NCBI GenBank assembly: GCA_009391845.1
Contig: QWJG01000001.1
Coordinates: 1-64,000, forward strand
Origin: Chloroflexota bacterium
GTDB lineage: Bacteria; Chloroflexota; Dehalococcoidia; UBA2979
Direction of reading: 5' to 3'
DNA: 64,000 nucleotides
The translations under genes were made by a program, and so were the position numbers. The stretch's first letter is position 1, and each line of letters opens with the position of its first letter. Below are positions 13,338 to 25,183 of the stretch, piece by piece. The notes beneath the pieces were generated by a model. The model was not told the DNA's origin. It did not search any database and worked only from the letters and a program-made list of their open reading frames with translations.

Positions 13338-13964
13338 GTGAGCGACGCTCCCGGGCCGCTGCTCGATCGCCCCGATCCCCCGCTCGTCATCGTCCTCTCC
13401 GGCCCGTCGGGCGTCGGCAAGGATGCCGTCATCCAGCGGATGATCGAACTTGGCCACCCAATCCGGATGCCGGTCACCATGACTACCCGCCCGCGCCGCT
13501 CCGAGGAGATCGATGGCGTCCACTACGTCTTCGTTGACCTCGCGGAGTTCGAGCGCCAGGTCGAGGCGGGCGAGCTACTTGAGCACGCCAAGGTCTACGG
13601 CAACCGCTACGGCGTCCCGCGCGCCCAGGTGCGCGCCGCCATGGCCACCGGTAACCACGTACTGATCCGCGTCGACGTCCAGGGCGCCGCTTCCCTCCGC
13701 GACACACTCCCGGGCGCCGTCTCGATCTTCCTCGTCCCCAACGACCTCGCCCACCTCGAGGCCCACCTGCGCGAGCGCGGATCCGAGGACGCCGCCGCCC
13801 TCCGCCGCCGCCTCGAGCAGGTCGAGGCCGAACTGCGCGAAGCCGCGTACTTCACCCACGTGATCGAGAACGTCGAGGGCGACCTCGATGGCACCGTACG
13901 CGCCGTCGCCGCCGCGATCCGTGCCGAAGCCGCCCGCGCGGATCGCGCCCCGATCGAGGTCTAG
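13338..13964 (+). CDS. gmk: Guanylate kinase
   Basis: The 208-residue protein phosphorylates GMP to GDP with ATP. The P-loop is SGPSGVGKDAV, followed by TTRPRRSEEIDGVHYVF (GMP-binding region) and the lid segment LRERGSEDAAALRRRL. It starts at GTG 13338, directly after the stop of the RemA-like gene. The C-terminus ends AIRAEAARADRAPIEV. In many bacteria gmk is followed by rpoZ, which is not seen here. Confidence 0.93.
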   Translation: MSDAPGPLLDRPDPPLVIVLSGPSGVGKDAVIQRMIELGHPIRMPVTMTTRPRRSEEIDGVHYVFVDLAEFERQVEAGELLEHAKVYGNRYGVPRAQVRAAMATGNHVLIRVDVQGAASLRDTLPGAVSIFLVPNDLAHLEAHLRERGSEDAAALRRRLEQVEAELREAAYFTHVIENVEGDLDGTVRAVAAAIRAEAARADRAPIEV

Positions 13965-14011
13965 TAACCTCACCCATTCCTCGCTAGCATTCGGCCGAGC
14001 GGAGGCCGGTC

Positions 14012-14656
14012 GTGGCGGACGAGTACGTGGTTCGGAACGCGCGCGAGTACGAAACCGGCGTCATCGACTACACGTCGTACAACGAGGACCGCGCTCCGAT
14101 CATGGGCTACCTCGACGCGCTCTGTGAGCGAACCGCCACCGGCGCGCGGGTCCTGGACCTCAGATGTGGGCGGGGCTGGGAGACGCGGACGCTCCACGAC
14201 CGCGGGTACCAGCCGGTCGGCTTCGACCTCTCGCGTGCGTTCCTCGAGCATGTTCGCCACCAGCAGCCCGCGATCCCCTGCGTGCGCGGCGACATGCGCC
14301 GCCTCCCCTTCGCTGACGCCTCATTCGAGGGCGCCTGGGCCTCCGCGTCGCTGCTGCACATGTCACGCACGGACCTCGATGTCGCGCTCGCCGAGCTCGC
14401 TCGCGTGCTCCGCCCCGGCGCCGCCTTCGTCGGCTCCGTGCAAGTTGGCGACAGCGAGGGCTTCGTCCCGCGGAAGTCGGCCCCCGGCGCGGAGCTCTTC
14501 TACGGCTACCTCGCGCCCGAGGACTGGCGGGCCCGCGTCGAAGCCGCTGGTTTCGCGATCGACGACCTCGTCATCGAGATCCACGAGGAGGAGCAATCGC
14601 ACCTCAACGCGGGATCGCGCGGCTGGGCTACCGTAATCGCGCGGCGAGGAGCGTAG
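14012..14656 (+). CDS. Class I SAM-dependent methyltransferase
   Basis: The 214-residue protein has the SAM-binding motif I as VLDLRCGRG near residue 48 (Arg instead of the common Gly), an acidic loop GFDLSRAF, a post-motif FADASFEGAWASASLLHM and a helical cap. This is the Methyltransf_11 type used on small molecules or quinone-like substrates. It starts at GTG 14012 with GCGGAGG upstream, and a possible -10 lies at 13985-13990. The substrate cannot be assigned. It ends 2 bp before the pyrophosphatase-like gene. Confidence 0.82.
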   Translation: MADEYVVRNAREYETGVIDYTSYNEDRAPIMGYLDALCERTATGARVLDLRCGRGWETRTLHDRGYQPVGFDLSRAFLEHVRHQQPAIPCVRGDMRRLPFADASFEGAWASASLLHMSRTDLDVALAELARVLRPGAAFVGSVQVGDSEGFVPRKSAPGAELFYGYLAPEDWRARVEAAGFAIDDLVIEIHEEEQSHLNAGSRGWATVIARRGA

Positions 14657-14658
14657 CG

Positions 14659-15054
14659 ATGGACGACTCACTCCACCCCCAGGACTGGACCGGGCGCACC
14701 ACGCGCGTCGTGATCGATCGCCCGCTCGGATCCACTCACCCCGAGCACGGCTACGCCTACGAGGTGAACTACGGCTTCGTCCCCGGCGTGCTCGCCCCCG
14801 ACGGGGAAGAACTCGACGTCTACCTCCTCGGTACCAGCGAACCCCTCGAGGTCTGCGAGCGCGCCGAGGTCGTCGGCATCGTGCGCCGTCGCGATGACGT
14901 CGAAGACAAGCTCGTCGCCGTCGTCGGCGCGGAGACCTGGGACGCCCAGAAGATCGCCGCGGCCGTCCGCTTTCAGGAGCAGTTCTTCGATTCATACGTG
15001 GAGTTGTGTGACTCGGCCCAGCAGCTTGGCTCGCGAGGCCCGGACGAGGCGTAG
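14659..15054 (+). CDS. Inorganic pyrophosphatase-like protein (short)
   Basis: The 131-residue protein contains NYGFVPGVLAPDGEELDVYLL, matching the Asp-rich active-site core of family I pyrophosphatases, and later RRRDDVEDKLVAVV. It is shorter than canonical enzymes (about 170 residues) and lacks part of the usual N-terminus. Short relatives are often annotated as inorganic diphosphatase. Hydrolysis of PPi is therefore likely but unproven. The ATG lies 2 bp after the methyltransferase stop, preceded by GGCGAGGAGC. It is followed by the trp leader. Confidence 0.75.
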   Translation: MDDSLHPQDWTGRTTRVVIDRPLGSTHPEHGYAYEVNYGFVPGVLAPDGEELDVYLLGTSEPLEVCERAEVVGIVRRRDDVEDKLVAVVGAETWDAQKIAAAVRFQEQFFDSYVELCDSAQQLGSRGPDEA

Positions 15055-15071
15055 GCGGGCCGCTAATCTCG

Positions 15072-15100
15072 TTGCATGCTTTCGAGCTGTGGCGTAGCCT
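15072..15100 (+). promoter_or_regulatory. Probable promoter of the trp T-box leader
   Basis: TTGCAT (15072-15077) and TAGCCT (15095-15100) are separated by 17 bp. Transcription from about 15107 would begin just before the T-box Stem I. Only one base departs from the -35 consensus core TTGC/AA. Confidence 0.5.
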
Positions 15101-15112
15101 CGACCGATTACT

Positions 15113-15414
15113 GAGGTTTCAATACCGACGTTGATCGGGAGTAGTACGTCGTCACGCGGGGCTACAGAGAACCGGACAAGCTGAGAACCGGCGCCCGCCA
15201 GCAACGACCGAATGGACCCGTGAGTCTCGGCCCAAACGCGCTCCTCTGGAGCGCAAGTAGGCGTCGACGGTGTGGGCGCCGTTATCCAGGCCCAGGGCAT
15301 CGCCCCGTCTCGAACGGTGGCCGTGCTCCGAAGATGCGTCGACGCGGCTCCGCCGTGCCGGCGAAATGTGGGTGGCACCGCGAGGACCATCGCCCCACGG
15401 GCGGTGGTTTTTTT
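15113..15414 (+). promoter_or_regulatory. Tryptophan T-box riboswitch leader
   Basis: The 580-bp gap before trpE holds a full T-box leader. Stem I landmarks run from about 15135: GGGAGTAGTA, then the paired region AGAGAACCGG and CTGAGAACCGG, then the specifier loop. There GAATGGACC places UGG, the Trp codon, at 15213-15215. The conserved T-box TGGGTGGCACCGCG is at 15369-15382. Its bulge UGGC is complementary to an acceptor end GCCA, which fits tRNA-Trp with a G discriminator base. A terminator follows. Uncharged tRNA-Trp should stabilise the antiterminator and allow trp transcription. Confidence 0.92.
15386..15414 (+). terminator. Regulated intrinsic terminator of the trp T-box
   Basis: ACCATCGCCC (15386-15395) pairs with GGGCGGTGGT (15399-15408) over 10 bp including one G-U, with a 3-nt loop and seven consecutive T ending at 15414. 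It starts just after the T-box sequence, the expected position for a transcription-attenuating terminator. Confidence 0.92.
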
Positions 15415-15499
15415 GTGTGCGAAACGATCTCGGTCAACCGCCCGAGGCGAGACGAGGAGCCCTCGGCCGTATGGCCGCTGGGATGAGGAGAATCGAACG

Positions 15500-15646
15500 A
15501 TGAGCAGCGACACCCGTCACGTGCCCGCCAACGCCGGTCGCCCTCTGGGCGATCACAGCGGCCGGGGGCAGTGGTGGCGCAGCCGTGCACGTTCGCTCAG
15601 CCGCCGTCCCGCAAGCGCCATACACGAGGTTCGCCATGCCCGGTGA
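15500..15646 (+). CDS. Candidate trp leader peptide with tandem Trp codons, overlapping trpE start
   Basis: An ATG at 15500 follows GAGGAG (15485-15490) at 9-nt spacing. The 48-residue frame holds two adjacent TGG codons at 15572-15577 and stops at TGA 15644-15646, 11 bp inside trpE. TGGCGC (15575-15580, including the second Trp codon) can pair with GCGCCA (15615-15620) just upstream of the trpE ribosome site. This recalls trpL peptides of proteobacteria and actinobacteria, but here it lies after a T-box. Open frames are common in GC-rich DNA, so this is a candidate, not a certainty. Confidence 0.45.
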   Translation: MSSDTRHVPANAGRPLGDHSGRGQWWRSRARSLSRRPASAIHEVRHAR

Positions 15647-17105
15647 GTACACCCCACCCCTGAACGAAGTCCGTCGCCTCCAGGGGAAAGGCAACATCGT
15701 CCCCGTCTTCCGCGAGGTCCGCGCTGACCTGGAGACGCCCGTCTCCGCCTACCTGAAGGTCGCCCGCGGTCCCTACTCGTTCCTCCTCGAATCCGTCGAG
15801 GGCGGCGAGCGGCTCGGGCGCTACTCCTTCATCGGCACGGAGCCCTTCCGCGTCGCCGCGCGCGATCACAGCGATGGCGATCCGCTCGACGAAATCGAAC
15901 GCGAACTCGGGCGCCTGCAGGCCGTGGAGGTCCCGGGGCTGCCCCGCTTCCACGGCGGCGCCGTCGGCTACCTCGGGTGGGAGGCGGGCGGTCACTTCGA
16001 GGATCTGCCGATCGCCGGTCCGAACACCATCGGGTTGCCCGAATCATGGTTGATGTTCGCCGAGACCCTGCTCGTATTCGATCACCTCATGCACTCGATC
16101 AAGGTGGTCTCGCACGTCCGGCTCGACGGCGATATCGACTCCAGCTACCGCCAGGCCGTTGGCCGCATCGACGAACTCGTCGCCCGCCTCGAGATCCCGC
16201 TCGGCGCGCTGCCGTACATCCCCTTCGACGGTGTCGCCGGTCAGCCGATCCAGGAGAACTGGTCGCAGGCGGAGTACATGACCGCGGTCGGTCGGATCAA
16301 GGACTACATCGTCGAGGGCGACATCATTCAGGGCGTCATCTCGCTCCGCTTCTCGCGGCAGACGGGGGCGCACCCGTTCGAGGTCTATCGCAGCCTGCGC
16401 GCGATCAATCCCTCGCCGTACATGTACTACCTCAAGTTCGACGACACCTACATCGTCGGCGCTTCCCCGGAGCTACTGGTCAACATCGAGGACGACCTCG
16501 TTGAGGTGCACCCGATCGCCGGTACCCGCCGGCGCGGCGAGACTCCGCTCGACGACGAGCGTCTCGCCGAGGAGTTGGCCCACGACCCCAAGGAGATCGC
16601 CGAGCACGTGATGCTGCTCGACCTCGGCCGCAACGACGTCGGACGCGTCGCCACGCCGGGCACCGTCGAGGTCACCCAGCAGCTCGACATCGAGTACTAC
16701 TCGCACGTCATGCACCTCGTCAGCCACGTGCAGGGCCGGTTGCGGGACGACATGACCGCCTACGACGCGCTGCGCTCCGCCTTCCCGGCCGGGACCGTCT
16801 CCGGCGCCCCGAAGATCCGCGCGATGGAGATCATCGCCGAACTCGAGCCGGATCAGCGCGGGCCGTACGCGGGCGCCGTCGGATTCTTCGACATGTCCGG
16901 CAACGCGGAGACCTGCATCACTATCCGCACGCTGGTGATGAAGGACGGCTGGGCACACGTGCAGGCGGGCGCTGGCATCGTCTTCGACTCCGATCCGCTG
17001 AAGGAGTACGAGGAATGCCAGCACAAGGCGCGCGCGTTGATCGCCGCGTTGGATGATGCGGAACACGGCGAGGGCGGGCCGCCGACCGGCAGCCTCGGCT
17101 ACTAG
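15636..17105 (+). CDS. trpE: Anthranilate synthase component I
   Basis: The 489-residue protein uses chorismate and ammonia (delivered by TrpG) to make anthranilate, the first committed step of tryptophan synthesis. LLES near residue 50 belongs to the tryptophan feedback pocket. The catalytic core includes ASPELLV, IAGTRRRGETP, DLGRNDVGRV, and FPAGTVSGAPKIRAMEI near the C-terminus. It starts at ATG 15636 after GAGG; a GTG at 15585 in frame would add 17 residues without homology. It is controlled by the upstream T-box and possibly by an overlapping leader peptide. Confidence 0.95.
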   Translation: MPGEYTPPLNEVRRLQGKGNIVPVFREVRADLETPVSAYLKVARGPYSFLLESVEGGERLGRYSFIGTEPFRVAARDHSDGDPLDEIERELGRLQAVEVPGLPRFHGGAVGYLGWEAGGHFEDLPIAGPNTIGLPESWLMFAETLLVFDHLMHSIKVVSHVRLDGDIDSSYRQAVGRIDELVARLEIPLGALPYIPFDGVAGQPIQENWSQAEYMTAVGRIKDYIVEGDIIQGVISLRFSRQTGAHPFEVYRSLRAINPSPYMYYLKFDDTYIVGASPELLVNIEDDLVEVHPIAGTRRRGETPLDDERLAEELAHDPKEIAEHVMLLDLGRNDVGRVATPGTVEVTQQLDIEYYSHVMHLVSHVQGRLRDDMTAYDALRSAFPAGTVSGAPKIRAMEIIAELEPDQRGPYAGAVGFFDMSGNAETCITIRTLVMKDGWAHVQAGAGIVFDSDPLKEYEECQHKARALIAALDDAEHGEGGPPTGSLGY

Positions 17106-17122
17106 GGCGAAAGACGACACCA

Positions 17123-18052
17123 ATGACCAACGATGCTTCTCCGCCCCCCGCTTCATCTGCCGGCCCACCGGCCGGCCCGCTGCTTGCCTCCGCGGCCGTG
17201 ATGCGCCGTGACGACGGCCGCGTCCTCCTCCTCCGGCACCTCGATGCCGGTCCGTTCGCCGGCCGCTGGTCGCTCCCGATCACCGGCGTCGCCGACGACG
17301 AGACCGCCGAGGAAGCACTCGGGCGCGTGCTGCGCGAGCACGTCCACGTCGAGCCGGGTCCGTTCGATTTCGAGGACACGCTCTACGTCAGCGGTGAGGG
17401 CGGTTCACGCTTCATCGTGAACGCGTTCCTCTGTCGTGCATGGCGCGGCGAGCCGCGCTTCAACGCGAAGCACTACGCCGATGCCGTCTGGGCACACCCC
17501 GCGACCCCGTCGGTTGGCTCGGAACTGCTGCCGGAGGTCGCCGCCTGGCTCGCCCGCACCCTCGGCGCTGCGGAGCATCCGCAGACCGCGAATGCGATCG
17601 GCACGCTGCTCAACGAGACGCGCGGCGCGCTGCTCGCCGCCTTCGAGTCCGTCCCCGAGGCGGCTCGCGAGGAGCAACTGACGGACGGCTGGTCGCCGCT
17701 CGACATCCTCGCGCACATCGCCGATGTCGAGACCTACTACCTGGCCGAGACCGATCGGCTGCTCCGCATCGCCGGGCACACCTGGCGCGGCTTCAACGAC
17801 GCGCAGTGGCACGATCTCTACCGCGCGCGGCCGGTCGACGACCTCGAAACCGTGCGCCAACGCCTGGACGCGGCGCGCGAGCGCACCCGCTTTTGGCTCG
17901 CCAGTCTCGAGGACGATCAGCTCACCCAGTACGGCAACCACCACGAACGCGGTGCCGTCCGGATCGGCGATCGCATCGCCAAGATCTCCCGCCACGAACA
18001 CGAACACACCGAACAGCTCCTGGCGATGTCGGACACCGCTCGCCAGGACTAA
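17123..18052 (+). CDS. Nudix-like and DinB-like two-domain fusion protein
   Basis: The 309-residue protein has two parts. Residues ~20-150 form a Nudix hydrolase-like fold (ASAAVMRRDDGRVLLLRH, WSLPITGV), but the Nudix box is incomplete: the usual REUxEE is replaced by RVLREHVHVE. Residues ~160-305 form a DinB/YfiT-like four-helix bundle, with metal-type His in LAHIADVE and in HEHEHTEQLL. DinB-like proteins include bacillithiol or mycothiol S-transferases and maleylpyruvate isomerases. Its place between trpE and trpG is unusual, and no link to tryptophan is evident. Function is not assigned. Confidence 0.75.
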   Translation: MTNDASPPPASSAGPPAGPLLASAAVMRRDDGRVLLLRHLDAGPFAGRWSLPITGVADDETAEEALGRVLREHVHVEPGPFDFEDTLYVSGEGGSRFIVNAFLCRAWRGEPRFNAKHYADAVWAHPATPSVGSELLPEVAAWLARTLGAAEHPQTANAIGTLLNETRGALLAAFESVPEAAREEQLTDGWSPLDILAHIADVETYYLAETDRLLRIAGHTWRGFNDAQWHDLYRARPVDDLETVRQRLDAARERTRFWLASLEDDQLTQYGNHHERGAVRIGDRIAKISRHEHEHTEQLLAMSDTARQD

Positions 18053-18082
18053 ATTAGCGACATGACGAAGGACGGCAACCTC

Positions 18083-18688
18083 ATGCTGTTACTCATCGAC
18101 AATTACGACTCGTTCACCTTCAACCTCTACCAGTACCTCTCGGAACTCGGCGCCCAGGTCGAGGTCCATCGCAACGACGAGATCTCCGTGGAGGACTGCC
18201 TGGCGATGGGCGCGGATCAGATCGTGATCTCGCCCGGCCCCTGCACGCCGGCGGAGGCGGGCATCTCCATCGATCTCGTGAAAGCCGCGGCAGGGCAGGT
18301 CCCGCTGCTCGGGGTCTGCCTCGGCCACCAGGCCATCGGCGAGGCGTACGGTGGCACCGTGAACTACGCGGGCGAGATCCTCCATGGGAAGACCTCGATG
18401 ATCGAGCACGACGGTAAGGGCGTCTTCCGCGGCCTACCCAATCCCTTCGAGGGCATCCGCTACCACTCGCTCGCGATCGATCCGGCCACCGTCCCCGAGG
18501 AACTCGAGGTGACCGCCCGCTCCGAGAGCGGCGTCATCATGGGCGTCCGGCACAAGACGCTCCCGATCGAGGGCATCCAGTTCCACCCCGAATCGATCAT
18601 GACGAAGGTCGGCCACCAGCTCCTCGCCAACTTCCTCGGCGTGAGCGCACCTGCGCACCTGCGCGCTGCCGAGGTGGTCGCATCGTGA
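18083..18688 (+). CDS. trpG: Anthranilate synthase component II (glutamine amidotransferase)
   Basis: The 201-residue class I glutamine amidotransferase supplies ammonia to TrpE. LLLIDNYDSFTFNLYQYL opens the protein, SPGPCTPAEAG is conserved, the nucleophile is the Cys in GVCLGHQAIGE, and FHPESI holds the His-Glu pair. The start MLLLIDNYDSF at 18083 is preferred; an in-frame ATG at 18062 adds seven residues. Its stop overlaps the trpD GTG by 4 bp. Confidence 0.94.
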   Translation: MLLLIDNYDSFTFNLYQYLSELGAQVEVHRNDEISVEDCLAMGADQIVISPGPCTPAEAGISIDLVKAAAGQVPLLGVCLGHQAIGEAYGGTVNYAGEILHGKTSMIEHDGKGVFRGLPNPFEGIRYHSLAIDPATVPEELEVTARSESGVIMGVRHKTLPIEGIQFHPESIMTKVGHQLLANFLGVSAPAHLRAAEVVAS

Positions 18689-19743
18689 TCAAGGAAGCAA
18701 TCGCCGCCCTCGTCGACGAGCGGCGCGACCTCACCGAGGCCGAAGCGCGCGGCGCGATGCAGGACATCATGCGCGCTGGCCTCGAGGGTCCGGCCAGCGA
18801 GGGTGAACAGGCGACGCCCGCCCAGTTCGGCGCGTTCGTCACCGCCCTCCGCATGAAGGGCGAGAGCGTCGACGAGATCGTCGGCATGGCGAAGGCGATG
18901 CGCTCCTACGCCCTCCGCGTCGATATCAAGGCGCGCCCGCTGCTCGACACCGCCGGTACCGGCGGCTCCTCCCGGAAGGTGTTCAACGCCTCGACCGCGG
19001 CGGCGTTTGTCGCCGCTGCCGCCGGCGCGACGGTAGCGAAGCACGGCAACCGCGCGATGACCTCGCAGTCCGGTTCCGCCGATCTCCTCGAAGCGCTAGG
19101 CGCCCAGATCGCACTCACCCCGGAGCAGGTCGCGCAGTGCGTGGAGCAGACCGGCGTCGGCTTCATGTTCGCGCAGTCGTTCCACCCCGCGATGAAGTTC
19201 GCCGGCCCGCTGCGCCCCCAGATCGGCGTCCGCACGATCTTCAACCTGCTCGGCCCGCTCACGAACCCGGCCGGCGCCAACTGCCACGTCATGGGTGTCG
19301 CCAACCCCGAGGTCGGCGAGAAGCTCGCCCACGCGCTTGCCCGCCTCGACATGCGCCACGCGCTCGTCGTCTCCGGCGATGACGGCCTCGATGACCTCAC
19401 CGTCACCGGCCCGTCGACGATCTTCGAGGTCAAAGGCACGCAGGTCACCCGCCGCACCGTGACCCCCTTCGACCTCGGTATCTCGATCCACCCGTTCGAC
19501 GCGATCCTGGGCGGGACCCCGCAAGACAACGCCGGTATCCTCCGCGCCGTCTTCCGCGGTGAGGGCCCGCTCGCCGTCCGCGATCTGATCATCGCCAACG
19601 CCGCCGCCGGGCTCTACGTCTCTGGCCTCGCCTCCTCCATCAAGCAGGGCGCGGAGCTGGCCGCGAAGGCGATCGACAGCGGCGAGGCCGCTGCCAAGAC
19701 CGGCGCTTTCGTCGAGGCCACCCGCCGCGCGGCGGGGAAGTAG
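18685..19743 (+). CDS. trpD: Anthranilate phosphoribosyltransferase
   Basis: The 352-residue protein transfers phosphoribosyl from PRPP to anthranilate. The PRPP site reads DTAGTGGSSRKVFNAST near residue 90, followed by KHGNRAMTSQSGSADLLEALG and the substrate region HPAMKFAGPLRPQIGVRT. The start is GTG 18685 within a GTGA overlap with trpG. Length is typical of the stand-alone enzyme. Confidence 0.95.
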   Translation: MIKEAIAALVDERRDLTEAEARGAMQDIMRAGLEGPASEGEQATPAQFGAFVTALRMKGESVDEIVGMAKAMRSYALRVDIKARPLLDTAGTGGSSRKVFNASTAAAFVAAAAGATVAKHGNRAMTSQSGSADLLEALGAQIALTPEQVAQCVEQTGVGFMFAQSFHPAMKFAGPLRPQIGVRTIFNLLGPLTNPAGANCHVMGVANPEVGEKLAHALARLDMRHALVVSGDDGLDDLTVTGPSTIFEVKGTQVTRRTVTPFDLGISIHPFDAILGGTPQDNAGILRAVFRGEGPLAVRDLIIANAAAGLYVSGLASSIKQGAELAAKAIDSGEAAAKTGAFVEATRRAAGK

Positions 19744-19749
19744 CCCCCG

Positions 19750-20613
19750 ATGTCCGACGCGAGCGCGACCCGCGACACCGGCACCGTGCTCGACAAGATC
19801 GTCGCCGCACGCCGCCTGCGACTCGCCGAGGATCGCGTCGCGCGACCAGAGTCAGTGCTGGCCGCGCTCATCGAGGGCGCGCCACCCGCACGCGACTTCG
19901 AGGCACTGCTGCGCGGCGGTCGCCCCGCCACCCCCGAGGGCGCGCGTGTCCGCCTGATCGCGGAGGTGAAGCGCGCCTCCCCCAGCAAGGGCGTCTTCGA
20001 CGCCGATCTCGATGCCGTCCAGCAGGCGACCAGCTACGCCCGTGCTGGCGCTGCCGCGATCTCCATCCTCACGGAGCCCGACTTCTTCGCCGGCAGCATC
20101 CAGGATCTCGCGGACGTCAGCGCGGCCTTCCGCGCTGACCCCGATCGCCCGGCCCTGCTCCGCAAGGAGTTCATCTGGGACGAGTACCAACTCCTGGAGG
20201 CGCGCGCCCACGGTGCCGACGCCGTCCTGCTGATCGTCATGCTCCTGCAGCCTGACGTACTCACCAGGCTGATCGCCCGCACCCGGGCCCTCGGCATGGA
20301 GCCACTGATCGAGGTGCACGACGAGCCGGAGCTGCGCGTCGCACTCGACTGCGGCGCGCGCGTCGTCGGCGTCAACAACCGCAACCTCCGTACTTTCGAG
20401 GAAGACCTCGGGACCACCGAGCGTCTCGCCGGCCTCGTCGGTGCCGCAGCCACGCTCGTCGCCGAGTCGGCGATCCGCACCCGCGCGGACGCCGAACGCA
20501 TGGCCGCTGCCGGTGCCCACGCGCTGCTGATCGGCGAAGCGCTCGTTACCGGCGACAATGTCGAACAACGCGCGCGCGAGTTCATGATCGCACCAGCCGG
20601 GACTCCACGATGA
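19750..20613 (+). CDS. trpC: Indole-3-glycerol-phosphate synthase
   Basis: The 287-residue (beta-alpha)8 enzyme closes the indole ring. Signatures are IAEVKRASPSKGVF, AAAISILTEPDFFAGS, LRKEFIWDEYQ, GVNNRNLRTFEEDL and SAIRTRADAERMAAAGAHALLIG. It starts at an ATG 6 bp after the trpD stop. No fusion to TrpF is present, as TrpF is encoded by the next gene. Confidence 0.95.
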   Translation: MSDASATRDTGTVLDKIVAARRLRLAEDRVARPESVLAALIEGAPPARDFEALLRGGRPATPEGARVRLIAEVKRASPSKGVFDADLDAVQQATSYARAGAAAISILTEPDFFAGSIQDLADVSAAFRADPDRPALLRKEFIWDEYQLLEARAHGADAVLLIVMLLQPDVLTRLIARTRALGMEPLIEVHDEPELRVALDCGARVVGVNNRNLRTFEEDLGTTERLAGLVGAAATLVAESAIRTRADAERMAAAGAHALLIGEALVTGDNVEQRAREFMIAPAGTPR

Positions 20614-20641
20614 CGCGTGCCGTGTGCGATCGGAGTGACCG

Positions 20642-21391
20642 ATGACCCTCGTCAAGATCTGCGGGAACCGAACGCCCGAGGATGTCCTCGCCGCCGCGGA
20701 GGCTGGCGCCGACTTCGTCGGCATCAACTTCGCCAAATCGACCCGACAGGTCGACATCGATGAGGCGCGCGCGATGGTCCGCGCCCTCGGCGCCCCGCTC
20801 GCCGATCACCCGTTCGCCGTGCCGCCACCCGCGCAGTCCGCTGCCCGCGAGGAGATCGAGCCGTGGTTCCGCCACGGCGCCGAGGTGATCGAGGCCTACC
20901 TCGAGGTCAAGCGACCGCTCACCGTCGGCATCTTCGCCGATCAGCCGATCGACGAGGTCAACGAACTCGCGGAGGAGTCGGGTGTCGATCTCGTCCAGCT
21001 CTCCGGCGATGAGAGCTGGGAGGACTGCCTGCTCGTCACCCGCCAGGTGATCCAGATCGTGCACGTCTCACCGCTCGATTCGCCCTCGGATTCCCTCGTC
21101 TCAGTGCAGCCCGGCTTCGCGATCGCGCTCGGACTCGATGCCGCGCACGGTCCCTACCGTGGCGGCACTGGCCGCACCTTCGACTGGGAGGTGGCCCGAC
21201 GAGTCGCCGATCGGATCCCGATCATGCTCGCCGGTGGCCTCAGCCCGGAAAACGTCGCCGAAGCGATCCGCGCCGTCGAGCCGTGGATTGTCGATGTCGC
21301 CACCGGCACGGAGACCAACGGCCGCAAGGACTACGGCCGCGTGCGCGCCTTCATCGAGGCGGTGCGCCGCGCTGACGAAAGCATGTCCTGA
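20642..21391 (+). CDS. trpF: Phosphoribosylanthranilate isomerase, with an insertion
   Basis: The protein has 249 residues, against about 200 usual for Trp[25 protein letters not shown] opens the barrel with the catalytic Cys, and the phosphate-binding end [24 protein letters not shown] and [14 protein letters not shown] is standard. An insert of roughly 40 residues (about 45-85, with [21 protein letters not shown]) follows the second strand. The usual start of the third strand is still found as [14 protein letters not shown]. The insert may be a helical lid. The enzyme isomerises phosphoribosylanthranilate. Confidence 0.93.
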
Positions 21392-21455
21392 GTCCGCCCG
21401 AACCCGCGAACATGCCAACCGACCGAGGCACCGAACGACTGCAGCAGGGACGAAC

Positions 21456-22664
21456 ATGACCACCACTGAACACCCCCGATCCGATCCCTTCCCGGACGCC
21501 ACCGGGCACTTCGGTGAGTTCGGTGGCCAGTACATCCCCGAGACCCTGATGCCCGCGGTCGCCGAGCTGGAGATCGCTTACCACGAGGCGATGGCGGATC
21601 CCGCGTTCCGCGCGCGCCTCGATGATCTCCTCAAGAACTACGTCGGACGGCCTACGCCGCTGACCTTCACCGAGCGGCTGTCGGAGCGCGTCGGCGCGAA
21701 GGTCTACCTGAAGCGCGAGGACCTCACCCACACCGGCGCGCACAAGATCAACGCCGCCCTCGCACAGGGCCTGCTCGCCCAGCGCATGGGCAAGCGCCGC
21801 ATCATCGCGGAGACCGGCGCTGGCCAGCACGGCGTCGCCACCGCCACCGTCTGCGCGCTGCTGGACCTTGAGTGCGTCGTCTACATGGGCGCCGAGGACG
21901 TTCGTCGCCAGTCGCTCAATGTCTTCCGCATGAAGCTGCTTGGCGCGGAGGTCCGCACCGTCAACGCCGGCTCACGCACCCTCAAGGACGCGACTAACGA
22001 GGCGATTCGCGACTGGGTCACCAACGTCGCCGACACCTACTACATCATTGGTAGCGTCGTTGGCCCGCACCCGTACCCGATGATGGTCCGCGACTTCCAG
22101 TCCGTGATCGGTCGCGAAGCTCGCGCCCAGATCCTCGAGCAGGAAGGGCGGCTCCCCACCATCGGCATCGCCTGCGTCGGCGGCGGCTCCAACGCGATGG
22201 GCCTCTTTTACCCGCTCCTCGATGACCCGATCCGCCTGATCGGCGTCGAAGCAGCCGGCGAGGGCCTCAACGGCCGCCACGCCGCCACGCTCTCGAAAGG
22301 CCGCCCCGGCGTGCTCCACGGCGCGAAGTCGATGCTGCTCCAGGATGAATGGGGTCAAATCATCGAGGCCCACTCCATCTCCGCCGGGCTCGACTACCCC
22401 GGGGTCGGCCCGGAGCACTCCTGGCTCAAGCTCAACGAGCGCGCCGAGTACCACGCTATCACCGACCAGGAAGCGCTCGTTGCCCTCCAGCTCCTCTGCG
22501 AACTGGAAGGCATCGTGCCTGCCCTCGAGTCATCGCACGCCGTCGCCTACCTCACGAAGCTCGCCCCGGAACTGACGCCGGATGACGTGGTGCTGCTGAA
22601 CCTCAGCGGGCGCGGCGACAAGGACATGAACACCGTCGCCGAAGCACTGCACTTCACCCTCTAG
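21456..22664 (+). CDS. trpB: Tryptophan synthase beta chain
   Basis: The 402-residue PLP enzyme condenses indole with serine. The PLP-binding Lys is in [12 protein letters not shown], and [18 protein letters not shown] and [11 protein letters not shown] are standard. It starts at ATG 21456 after GCAGGGA. It is the last trp gene of the first block. trpA lies 4.6 kb downstream, past unrelated genes, so the alpha and beta subunits are not made from adjacent cistrons. Confidence 0.96.
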
Positions 22665-22688
22665 CCCGATCGGCGACCGACCCCTCTC

Positions 22689-23404
22689 ATGATCAGCCAT
22701 CACCATCGCTGCGTGTTCGTTCATGTTCCGAAGGCCGCGGGCGAGAGCATCGAGCACGCCTTCACCGACGCGCTCGGCATCGATTGGGAGCGCGCGCCAC
22801 AACTGCTGATTACCCCGAACAGCGATCCGACGCTCGGCCCGCCGTACCTGTCGCACCTCACCGCCGCGGACTATGTGCGCCTCAAGTACCTCCCGCAGGC
22901 GATGTTCGACGACTACCTCACGTTCGCGACGGTCCGGAACCCGTGGGCGCGCGTGGTCTCCATGTATCGCTACCTCGCGATCCACGTCCCCTTCGCCGTC
23001 TTCGTGAACGAGCTACTCGCTGGCGAACTGTGGGAGCGCCTCCACTACTTCGTCCGCCCGCAGACCGACTTCGTCTGCGACGACTCCGGCAACGTCATCG
23101 TCGATCGCCTGATTCGCTTCGAGAACCTCGCGCCCGAGTTATTCGAGGTCTGCGATGCCCTCGGACTGCCGCGTCGCTGCCCCACCTCAACTCCTCGGAT
23201 GAGCTGGCCCAGTACGCCTACCGCCGGGTGCGAGCCATGCAGTTCGCGTACGCGCTCTGGCTGCGGCGATTCCGTCTCGCCGGCCACGCCTTCCGAGCAA
23301 AGGACCGCTTCGATCACTACACGGCCTACTACGACGCCGGCACCAGCCAGCGCGTCGCCGAGATCTATCGCTCCGACATCGAGGTTCTCGGCTACACGTT
23401 CTGA
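22689..23404 (+). pseudogene. Sulfotransferase-family 2 protein, frameshifted
   Basis: The frame from ATG 22689 encodes a sulfotransferase core: VFVHVPKAAGESIEHAF (PAPS 5'-phosphosulfate loop) and ATVRNPWARVVSMYRYL (3'-phosphate loop). Homology is lost near 23170-23185. The matching C-terminal part continues in another frame as LPHLNSSDELAQYAYRR, through VAEIYRSDIEVLGYTF, to the stop at 23402-23404. Loss of one base (or gain of two) near CTGCCGCGTCGCTGCC restores one chain of about 238 residues, a typical family length. It is a pseudogene, a sequencing error or, less likely, programmed frameshifting. Confidence 0.8.
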
Positions 23405-23432
23405 TCGGCAATCCTCGGCGCGCCGCGGCGGA

Positions 23433-24140
23433 TCACCCGCCCCCGAGGCCGAGCGCGTCCAGTGCCTCCAGCGCCTCCGCCGTGTGTCGCGGCAACGCCT
23501 CGCCGTCGATCGCGCGACGCGCCAGCTCGTCCCGCAACCGATCGAGGTCTGCCGCCGTGTCCACGTCGAACCCCTCCGGCAGCAGCCCATAGTCGAGCCC
23601 CACCCGTCGCGCCGCCGCGATCGAAGCATCGAGGACGCTCGGCCCACCCCAGCTAATCGCGCCACCCTCGAAGAGCGCCGCGAGTGGCCGGTGCATCCCA
23701 ATCAGGTAGTAGCCACCGTCCGCGGCCGGCCCGAACACTACGTCCGCTCGCCGCAGCGCCCGCAGTGCGTGATGGAATCGCCCCGGCTCCAACCACGGCA
23801 GATCGGATCCCACGAGGATCACCGGGCCGTATCCGTCGCTGGCGAGCGACGCGGTCGCCGCGAGCATCCGCGCGCCGATGTCGCCGCTCGCCTGCGCGCG
23901 CACATCGAGGATCCCCGTCAGCTCCACTGTGTCGTCGATCGCCTCCGCGGGTTCGACGAATACCGTCGGGTGGCAGAGTGCCGTCGCCCGCACCGCGTCG
24001 CAGACGTCGAGCAGCATCGCCCGCGCCAGCGCGTACGCCGCGTCCGCGCCGATCGCCGCCGCCAGGCGCGTCTTCCCGCGCCCGCGCTCCGGGTACCGCG
24101 TGAGCACGCCGATCGCCGGCCCTCGAGGTTCGCTCGTCAT
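23433..24140 (-). CDS. rSAM-associated transferase 1 (TIGR04282-type, DUF2064)
   Basis: The 235-residue protein begins with a nucleotidyltransferase-like strand AIGVLTRYPERGRGKTRLA. It contains ILVGSDLPWLEP and GPAADGGYYLIGM, the signatures of DUF2064/TIGR04282 glycosyltransferase-like (CofC-like) proteins. This family usually pairs with a TIGR04283 partner and a radical SAM protein, as here. Some members are tied to arsenosugar biosynthesis, but no arsenic gene is visible. The reaction is not established. Confidence 0.82.
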   Translation of the reverse strand: MTSEPRGPAIGVLTRYPERGRGKTRLAAAIGADAAYALARAMLLDVCDAVRATALCHPTVFVEPAEAIDDTVELTGILDVRAQASGDIGARMLAATASLASDGYGPVILVGSDLPWLEPGRFHHALRALRRADVVFGPAADGGYYLIGMHRPLAALFEGGAISWGGPSVLDASIAAARRVGLDYGLLPEGFDVDTAADLDRLRDELARRAIDGEALPRHTAEALEALDALGLGGG

Positions 24141-24208
24141 GCCCGCAGCCTACGTCGCCCCTTACGGTTCGGCGCGAGTCAGCGCCAATCGGTTTGAGTC
24201 GGAGCCAG

Positions 24209-25183
24209 TCAGTGCGCGCCGCCCTCGATCGTCGCGATCGGGACCAGCCGCCGCTCGCCCTGGACGGGCAGTTCCTCCGCACGATCGCCCCGCGCCCGCA
24301 CCCGTTCCGTCATGTACTCGTCGCACCAGAGACAGACCGACCCCAGCGCCGCGATCCGTTCGAGGGCTGCCCCCCGATCGAACCCCGCGTGCGCCCCCAT
24401 CGCGGCCGGGTCGCCGCGGTTCAGCGCCGCCCACATCGGATCCCCGCGGTGCCGCGCCAGGATCGAGGTCAGCGATTCCTCCGCGAGATCCCCCAACGGC
24501 TCCACCGTCCCCGGGCAGCACGGATACACCGAGGTGAGCTGGATCGACACCTCCTGCTGCGCGGAACCGTCATCCAGGAACCCCAGCGCGCCCGACCAGC
24601 GATCGCAGAAGTTGTGTTCCGGCATGAGCTGCGCCAGCCCGTACTTCATCGCTCGCCCGCGCGGCCAGATTCCACCGACCCACAGCTCCGGGTTTGCGCC
24701 CCAAACCGTGAAACTCACCTCGGACTCCGCGTCACCACCCGGCCGGTTCTCCGCCGGGTCCCCCACCTGCCGCTCCACTACCCCTGCGCTTGCGAACAAC
24801 GATCGAAGGCCCTCGAACTTCCCCGCCGGCCGCGGGTGGAACTGGTCGTACGACGAGATCGAGAAACTATCGACGCCCGCCACGGTCAGCGCGTCGAGCG
24901 TCGAACGATCCAGCACATCACCGTTCGTCTGCAGCGCGACCCGCGCGTGCGGGTACCTCGCGCGTCCCGACCTCACGAGGTGGAGCGGCAGCTCCAGCTC
25001 TACCAGCGGCTCGCCGCCCGACAGGATGAAGCGGTTCGCCACCTCCGGCAGATGCCCGAGGACCGCATCGGCTTCCGCCTGCGTGATCGTCGGGGCGCCC
25101 GGCCGCGAGTCGTTGTAGCAGTGCGCGCACCGCAGATTGCAGTTGTGCGTGAAGACCCAGTAGATCGACTCGATGCTCGTCAC
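24209..25183 (-). CDS. Radical SAM/SPASM-like protein
   Basis: The 324-residue protein starts at GTG 25183 with GGAG 6 nt upstream. The 4Fe-4S motif NCNLRCAHCY is at about residue 15, SGGEPL (SAM-binding GGE) near residue 55, and further Cys lie at NFCDRW, PCCPG and CLWCDEY in the C-terminal third, as in SPASM-type proteins that hold auxiliary clusters. It lies between two rSAM-associated glycosyltransferase-like genes. It does not show the ArsS layout I would expect for arsenosugar synthesis. The substrate is unknown; peptide or glycan precursor modification is a possibility. Confidence 0.82.
   Translation of the reverse strand: MTSIESIYWVFTHNCNLRCAHCYNDSRPGAPTITQAEADAVLGHLPEVANRFILSGGEPLVELELPLHLVRSGRARYPHARVALQTNGDVLDRSTLDALTVAGVDSFSISSYDQFHPRPAGKFEGLRSLFASAGVVERQVGDPAENRPGGDAESEVSFTVWGANPELWVGGIWPRGRAMKYGLAQLMPEHNFCDRWSGALGFLDDGSAQQEVSIQLTSVYPCCPGTVEPLGDLAEESLTSILARHRGDPMWAALNRGDPAAMGAHAGFDRGAALERIAALGSVCLWCDEYMTERVRARGDRAEELPVQGERRLVPIATIEGGAH

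Follow-up and report, generated by a model that had tools for sequence, protein, structure and literature searches.

The window, that is, the whole 64,000-nucleotide stretch of DNA analysed here, carries a Trp T-box upstream of trpE and, behind that T-box, a 48-codon frame with two adjacent Trp codons. As judged from sequence comparison with its relatives, this frame is probably a second, ribosome-read Trp sensor. We consider it reasonably likely that such a translated Trp leader adds a layer of ribosome traffic, acting by occlusion, to the T-box on trpE. A sequence-only reading of the window had located the frame, its ribosome site, the TGG TGG pair and the stop codon inside trpE, and inspection of the sequence and its translation agreed with it to the base. 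The features of the locus are as follows:

15122–15400, forward strand: Trp T-box leader RNA (RF00230, 67.2 bits, E=2.6e-14, under the gathering score of 93)
15213–15215, forward strand: T-box specifier codon UGG (Trp), as GAA-UGG-ACCCG in the specifier region of the Rfam alignment
15389–15414, forward strand: intrinsic terminator of the T-box, with its stem at 15389–15408 and a T-run to 15414 (terminator scan and sequence)
15485–15490, forward strand: leader ribosome site GAGGAG (sequence; duplex score −8.6 kcal/mol)
15500–15646, forward strand: leader peptide frame of 48 codons, from ATG at 15500 to TGA at 15644–15646 inside trpE (translation)
15572–15577, forward strand: tandem Trp codons 25 and 26, TGG TGG (sequence)
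15575–15580, forward strand: 5' arm of a stem, TGGCGC (sequence), unsupported as a conserved switch
15615–15620, forward strand: 3' arm of the stem, GCGCCA (sequence)
15626–15629, forward strand: trpE ribosome site GAGG (sequence)
15636–17105, forward strand: trpE, anthranilate synthase component I, starting with ATG at 15636 (PF00425 and PF04715; TIGR00564 at 543.6 bits, cut-off 517.7)

The leader frame at 15500–15646 translates as MSSDTRHVPANAGRPLGDHSGRGQWWRSRARSLSRRPASAIHEVRHAR. The trpE start was fixed by hand at 15636, the rule having favoured a GTG at −51 by 0.1 kcal/mol; duplex scores for ribosome sites were computed with an assumed 16S 3' tail. The trp operon of the window consists of trpE, a NUDIX/DinB-like gene, trpG, trpD, trpC, trpF and a gene for a PLP enzyme, which occupies the place of trpB (Pfam; trpE by NCBIfam). 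The gene with NUDIX and DinB-like domains lies at 17123–18052, between trpE and trpG; judged by likeness of its start, a similar-looking gene (~300 codons) follows trpE in seven of eight relatives and is absent in L013. The window TrpE shares 82–84% identity with its closest Dehalococcoidia (Chloroflexota) relatives, and the records closest to it bear the names Dehalococcoidia, Dehalococcoides or Chloroflexi.

The Trp T-box of the window is real. It matches the full RF00230 model, its specifier suits the regulated gene and a terminator lies downstream, so that all three T-box features are present; the UGG at 15213–15215 is taken to be the specifier on our assumption of where that codon sits in a T-box. 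When tRNA-Trp is uncharged, an element of this kind lets RNA polymerase pass the terminator. The T-box terminator precedes the leader frame, as had been read from the sequence (terminator scan and RF00230 match), and the scan of positions 14900–15900 of the window found none besides it.

We extended the analysis to one order of Dehalococcoidia, sampled by 44 genomes, 41 of which have TrpE. The locus set comprised 40 loci (L081–L120) plus the window, 41 in total; G032, whose TrpE is split in two pieces at contig ends, was left out. A T-box motif was found directly upstream of trpE in 28 of the 41 loci, and in three further ones (L092, L105 and L108) it lies ~1.2 kb upstream of trpE, before trpS (identified by NCBIfam). 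The specifier-type motif for Trp is present in 30 of these 31 T-box loci and missing in L105. The RF00230 search, run on 14 genomes, gave 12 matches before trpE or trpS at E≤0.001, none of them above the gathering cut-off. Two of the 14 genomes had no trpE or trpS match, G001 (motif absent) and G016 (motif present). The T-box of L106 was called by motifs alone, RF00230 giving no match in that genome, and among the three trpS-side T-boxes it is the one in the L092 genome that has covariance-model support.

A Trp-codon leader lies between the T-box (or trpS) and trpE in 30 of the 31 T-box loci of the order, the window included. The sole exception is L120, where the T-box is accompanied merely by a stray one-Trp frame. 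Conservation in relatives had been suggested as a check on the frame; relatives do keep the frame, its Trp codons and a stop that falls on the trpE start or close by. These leaders are 34–54 codons long except in L105, whose leader is weak (18 codons, one Trp and a poor ribosome site). Their stop overlaps the trpE start or is at most two bases away in 25 of 30 cases, and in the other five it lies 23–43 bases upstream of trpE (L104 at −43, L095 at −35, and L094, L099 and L101 at −23/−24). In L092, L105 and L108 the gene order is T-box, trpS, leader, trpE, with trpS within the unit behind the T-box; the placing of the leader between trpS and trpE indicates that it goes along with trpE. A rule blind to Trp, which took the frame with the best ribosome site and a stop within −50 to +30 of trpE, chose the Trp frame in 24 of the 28 loci with the T-box directly upstream. 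It took another frame in L086, L087 and L101 despite an existing Trp frame, and no Trp was found in L120. Leader frames were set by hand, after viewing, in L086, L087, L101, L108, L105 and L114–L117.

Ten loci of the order have no T-box. Four of them (L114–L117), forming one clade, have a short one-Trp frame of 18–21 codons that ends 67–82 bases before trpE, and this clade may have switched to another control. For L114–L117 a hairpin is predicted that pairs the start of the frame with bases preceding the Trp codon; it looks alike in two sub-groups. In the remaining six the rule identified no Trp leader; stray one-Trp frames with poor ribosome sites occur in L082, L090 and L113. In the TrpE tree, computed without the incomplete L120, the sister of the window is L082, in which T-box and Trp codons are both absent: no T-box motif was found, and its 47-codon frame, which resembles that of the window in start context and overlaps trpE in the same way, holds no Trp codons. 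L090 and L091, in the window's clade of five rows, likewise lack T-box and Trp codons. Mapped on this tree, the T-box-plus-leader state requires 4 changes, compared with 14.1 for shuffled labels.

In-frame TGG makes up 87 of the 1,238 codons in 33 leaders, compared with 23 and 12 of 1,205 when these spans are read in the two other frames. The expectation from 1,000 dinucleotide shuffles is a mean of 18.7 (sd 4.0, max 31), and tandem TGG TGG is found in 20 of the 33 leaders, where the shuffles average 0.25 (max 3); since these leaders were selected as Trp-holding, some with frames set by hand, the comparison with the other frames is a fairer control than the shuffles. L117, which contains an N, was excluded from the TGG counts and, like L105, from the opening-cost and duplex sets described below. 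Across 17 leader pairs with identities from 11/34 to 17/18, 42 of the 43 Trp codons of the smaller set are aligned, and raw dN/dS ranges from 0.63 to 1.85, the peptide outside Trp drifting; these figures come from small counts in pairs with shared branches, and dN/dS is a crude measure here. Spaced Trp sets (WRW, WLRW and the five spaced Trp of L093) stay in frame as well. L102 and L105 have a single Trp codon, and L101 has two, apart from each other. Trp codons that are kept while the remaining peptide drifts point to a probably real second sensor, because this is the pattern expected of a codon-reading leader, unlike that of a functional protein or an arrest peptide. TnaC-like leaders are arrest peptides that sense free Trp; this candidate was rejected, as little besides Trp is conserved.

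The leader belongs with trpE, as indicated by the other T-boxes of these genomes. In the same 14 genomes RF00230 found 25 T-boxes, the 12 before trpE or trpS and 13 before aminoacyl-tRNA synthetase genes (thrS and ileS). Seven of these 13 genes were run against NCBIfam, with three thrS above cut-off and four having ileS as best match, these being cut fragments under cut-off; the other six were assigned to thrS or ileS by eye. In none of the 13 thrS/ileS T-box loci is the gene preceded by a tandem-Trp frame that has a ribosome site. In L160 there is a 13-codon frame with a single Trp; in L157 a WW frame, whose ribosome site is poor, enters the gene out of frame.

Outside the order, a T-box lies near trpE in 10 of 33 loci of the class (identified by eye in L129), and none of them has a WW leader, unlike the loci of this order; one, L171, combines a T-box with a 46-codon frame holding three scattered Trp. 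L164 and L169 have WRW frames with no T-box nearby, apparently lying over upstream coding DNA. A 33-codon frame ending CHTSGGQGVWRGA(R/D) is found upstream of trpE in L180 and L181, with no T-box motif, and the DNA of the two frames is near-identical. We also searched 65 of 67 further trpE loci, mostly from other phyla, having dropped L034 and L043 for their short upstream DNA. By motif only, 15 of them have a T-box, 90–142 bases before trpE, and none has a Trp leader behind it. L050 matched the rule for a Trp leader and was discarded, its frame ending inside the T-box. Tandem-Trp frames without a T-box occur in L026 and L028.

The Trp codons lie in the middle of the leaders. With L105 left out, all 29 leaders have their first Trp at codon 16–25 and their last no closer than 46 bases to trpE. 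Under random placement in 18 leaders, one per clade and chosen by eye from the tree, these positions have P=0.00035 (first Trp) and P=0.00005 (distance of the last Trp), values that are optimistic because the limits were taken from the same data. With L105 counted, the last Trp is at least 46 bases before the trpE ATG in 29 of 30 leaders, and a Trp-stalled ribosome would thus leave the trpE site clear, as its edge does in 29 of 30 with the footprint edges that we assumed. With the same assumed edges, the trpE site comes within reach of a terminating ribosome in 28 of 30 leaders, the window included, although only barely in L094, L099 and L101; in L104 and L095 the stop is too distant.

This geometry suggests how a translated Trp-codon peptide would add a translational layer to the T-box. 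With uncharged tRNA-Trp, the T-box would antiterminate, and a ribosome entering the leader would slow or stall at the Trp codons, ~55 bases ahead of the trpE start; with the trpE ribosome site left unoccupied, trpE could be translated. With charged tRNA-Trp, ribosomes would translate as far as the stop, which overlaps the start of trpE, occupy the site and compete with fresh initiation, which would lower the trpE output from transcripts leaked past the T-box.

The direction of this control, which we infer from the geometry, has to be weighed against termination–reinitiation. If ribosomes had to finish the leader in order to start trpE, a Trp stall would lower trpE, and in severe starvation the leader would limit TrpE synthesis or delay it. 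ATGA overlaps usually favour reinitiation, by which the sign of control would be reversed, and ATGA or GTGA overlaps of stop and start are found in 16 of the 33 leaders, with a longer overlap into trpE in six more. The frame of L082, with its like context and overlap yet no Trp, sides with reinitiation too and is evidence against occlusion, as the overlap may serve something else. However, reinitiation would oppose the T-box of the same transcript, and trpE has a ribosome site of its own, with a mean duplex score of −7.5 kcal/mol compared with −8.3 kcal/mol for the leaders. It also fits poorly with the five leaders that stop 23 to 43 bases upstream (L094, L095, L099, L101 and L104), and we regard it as unlikely. 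A structure-based translational attenuator, in which a stalled ribosome opens or closes a stem between the Trp codon and the trpE ribosome site, had been proposed for the window, where a TGGCGC/GCGCCA stem does exist and ends 5 bases before that site. Pairing of the Trp region with the bases downstream is slightly above chance (mean z −0.32, sem 0.14), and in 5 of 32 leaders (L083, L100, L110, L112 and L114) the prediction is that a first-Trp stall opens the trpE site by at least 3 kcal/mol; in two others (L106 and L116) it closes the site by at least as much. The average predicted accessibility is unchanged by a Trp stall, contrary to the proposal: the median cost of opening the trpE site over the 32 leaders is 7.8 kcal/mol when free, 8.0 with a first-Trp stall and 8.6 with a last-Trp stall, and the corresponding values in the window are 5.8, 5.6 and 5.6 kcal/mol. 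The Trp region pairs with the trpE site no better than shuffles do (mean z +0.13), and the bases between the two avoid pairing with that site (mean z +0.80 against shuffles, for leaders only). No shared structure was seen in consensus folds of nine groups. The stem region of the window also folds no better than shuffles, 197 of 200 of which fold at least as well over 15560–15650 (z +1.78). Opening costs, duplex scores, group-wise consensus folds and window folds all leave the stem unsupported as a conserved switch, and the structural explanation appears improbable, although single leaders or groups could have a stem switch. What stands of the sequence-only reading is the second, ribosome-read Trp sensor, backed by sequence conservation, while the stem does not hold up as its working part.

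Tandem Trp codons are also the hallmark of trpL, and the leader might act by transcription attenuation, whether intrinsic or Rho-dependent. However, T-runs of four or more are absent between leader start and trpE +60 in all 30 T-box leaders. This disfavours an intrinsic terminator behind the leader, and we hold transcription attenuation of either form to be very unlikely. Open frames abound in high-GC DNA (113 of at least 30 aa overlap positions 13500–25000), as a chance frame would require, but neither chance nor a small functional protein accords with TGG enrichment in a single frame, conserved placing of start and stop, and drift elsewhere in the peptide; either origin is scarcely credible.

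The occlusion reading has a close parallel in Bacillus subtilis. The leader peptide rtpLP is about 10 codons long, and its stop sits near the next gene's ribosome site; a stalled ribosome leaves that site clear and a finishing one reaches it, the same geometry as found here. The leaders of this order are longer (34–54 codons, 18 in L105), with the Trp codons in mid-leader. The mark of the rtpLP type, an operon in which a T-box precedes a Trp-codon leader, is found in 30 of the 31 T-box loci. Control by tRNA-Trp is stated to act on anti-TRAP at the level of transcription as well as translation (PMC11255114 and PMC4027176, citing Chen and Yanofsky 2003 and 2004). The at (rtpA, anti-TRAP) operon would thus resemble the present loci in joining a tRNA-Trp T-box to tRNA-dependent ribosome stalling on one operon, stalling being presumed in our case; the target is a regulator, anti-TRAP, in B. 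subtilis and trpE itself in Dehalococcoidia. Calling two-tier control unusual, as the sequence-only reading did, is fair, with the qualification that this combination is known from anti-TRAP in these two papers.

Proteobacteria and Actinobacteria have trpL attenuators, described for Actinobacteria in PMC1262725, which similarly place a short tandem-Trp frame upstream of trp genes. They differ from the loci described here, where the terminator precedes the leader and belongs to the T-box, and where nothing behind the leader looks like an intrinsic terminator. T-boxes on trpE have been reported in two Dehalococcoides (Wels 2008, PMC2494555), the same T-box class, gene and bacterial class as here, and the consulted portion of that paper mentions no leader peptide. 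The T-box trpE loci outside the order (10 in the class and 15 others) include none with a tandem-Trp leader, unlike those of this order. Among the titles and abstracts listed, with thin coverage of subscription journals, there was no report of a T-box combined with a Trp leader on trp operons or in Chloroflexi, and the matches listed included no Trp leader peptide in Chloroflexota.

A T-box with a stalling leader is known on anti-TRAP; the loci described here have a Trp leader on trpE itself, in Dehalococcoidia. Control may be two-tiered across the order, with the T-box gating transcription and the Trp leader gating trpE translation by ribosome traffic alone, without an RNA switch in the second tier, perhaps added once near the base of the order and decaying where the T-box was lost; we see this generalisation as evenly poised between holding and failing. 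T-boxes and leader peptides are spoken of, in one survey (PMC2965389), as sensors that replace each other on a gene, whereas through most of this order they are stacked on one amino-acid operon. Together with the loci that have neither and the lineage with a shortened leader only, they form a natural series on what a translational layer would add to a T-box.
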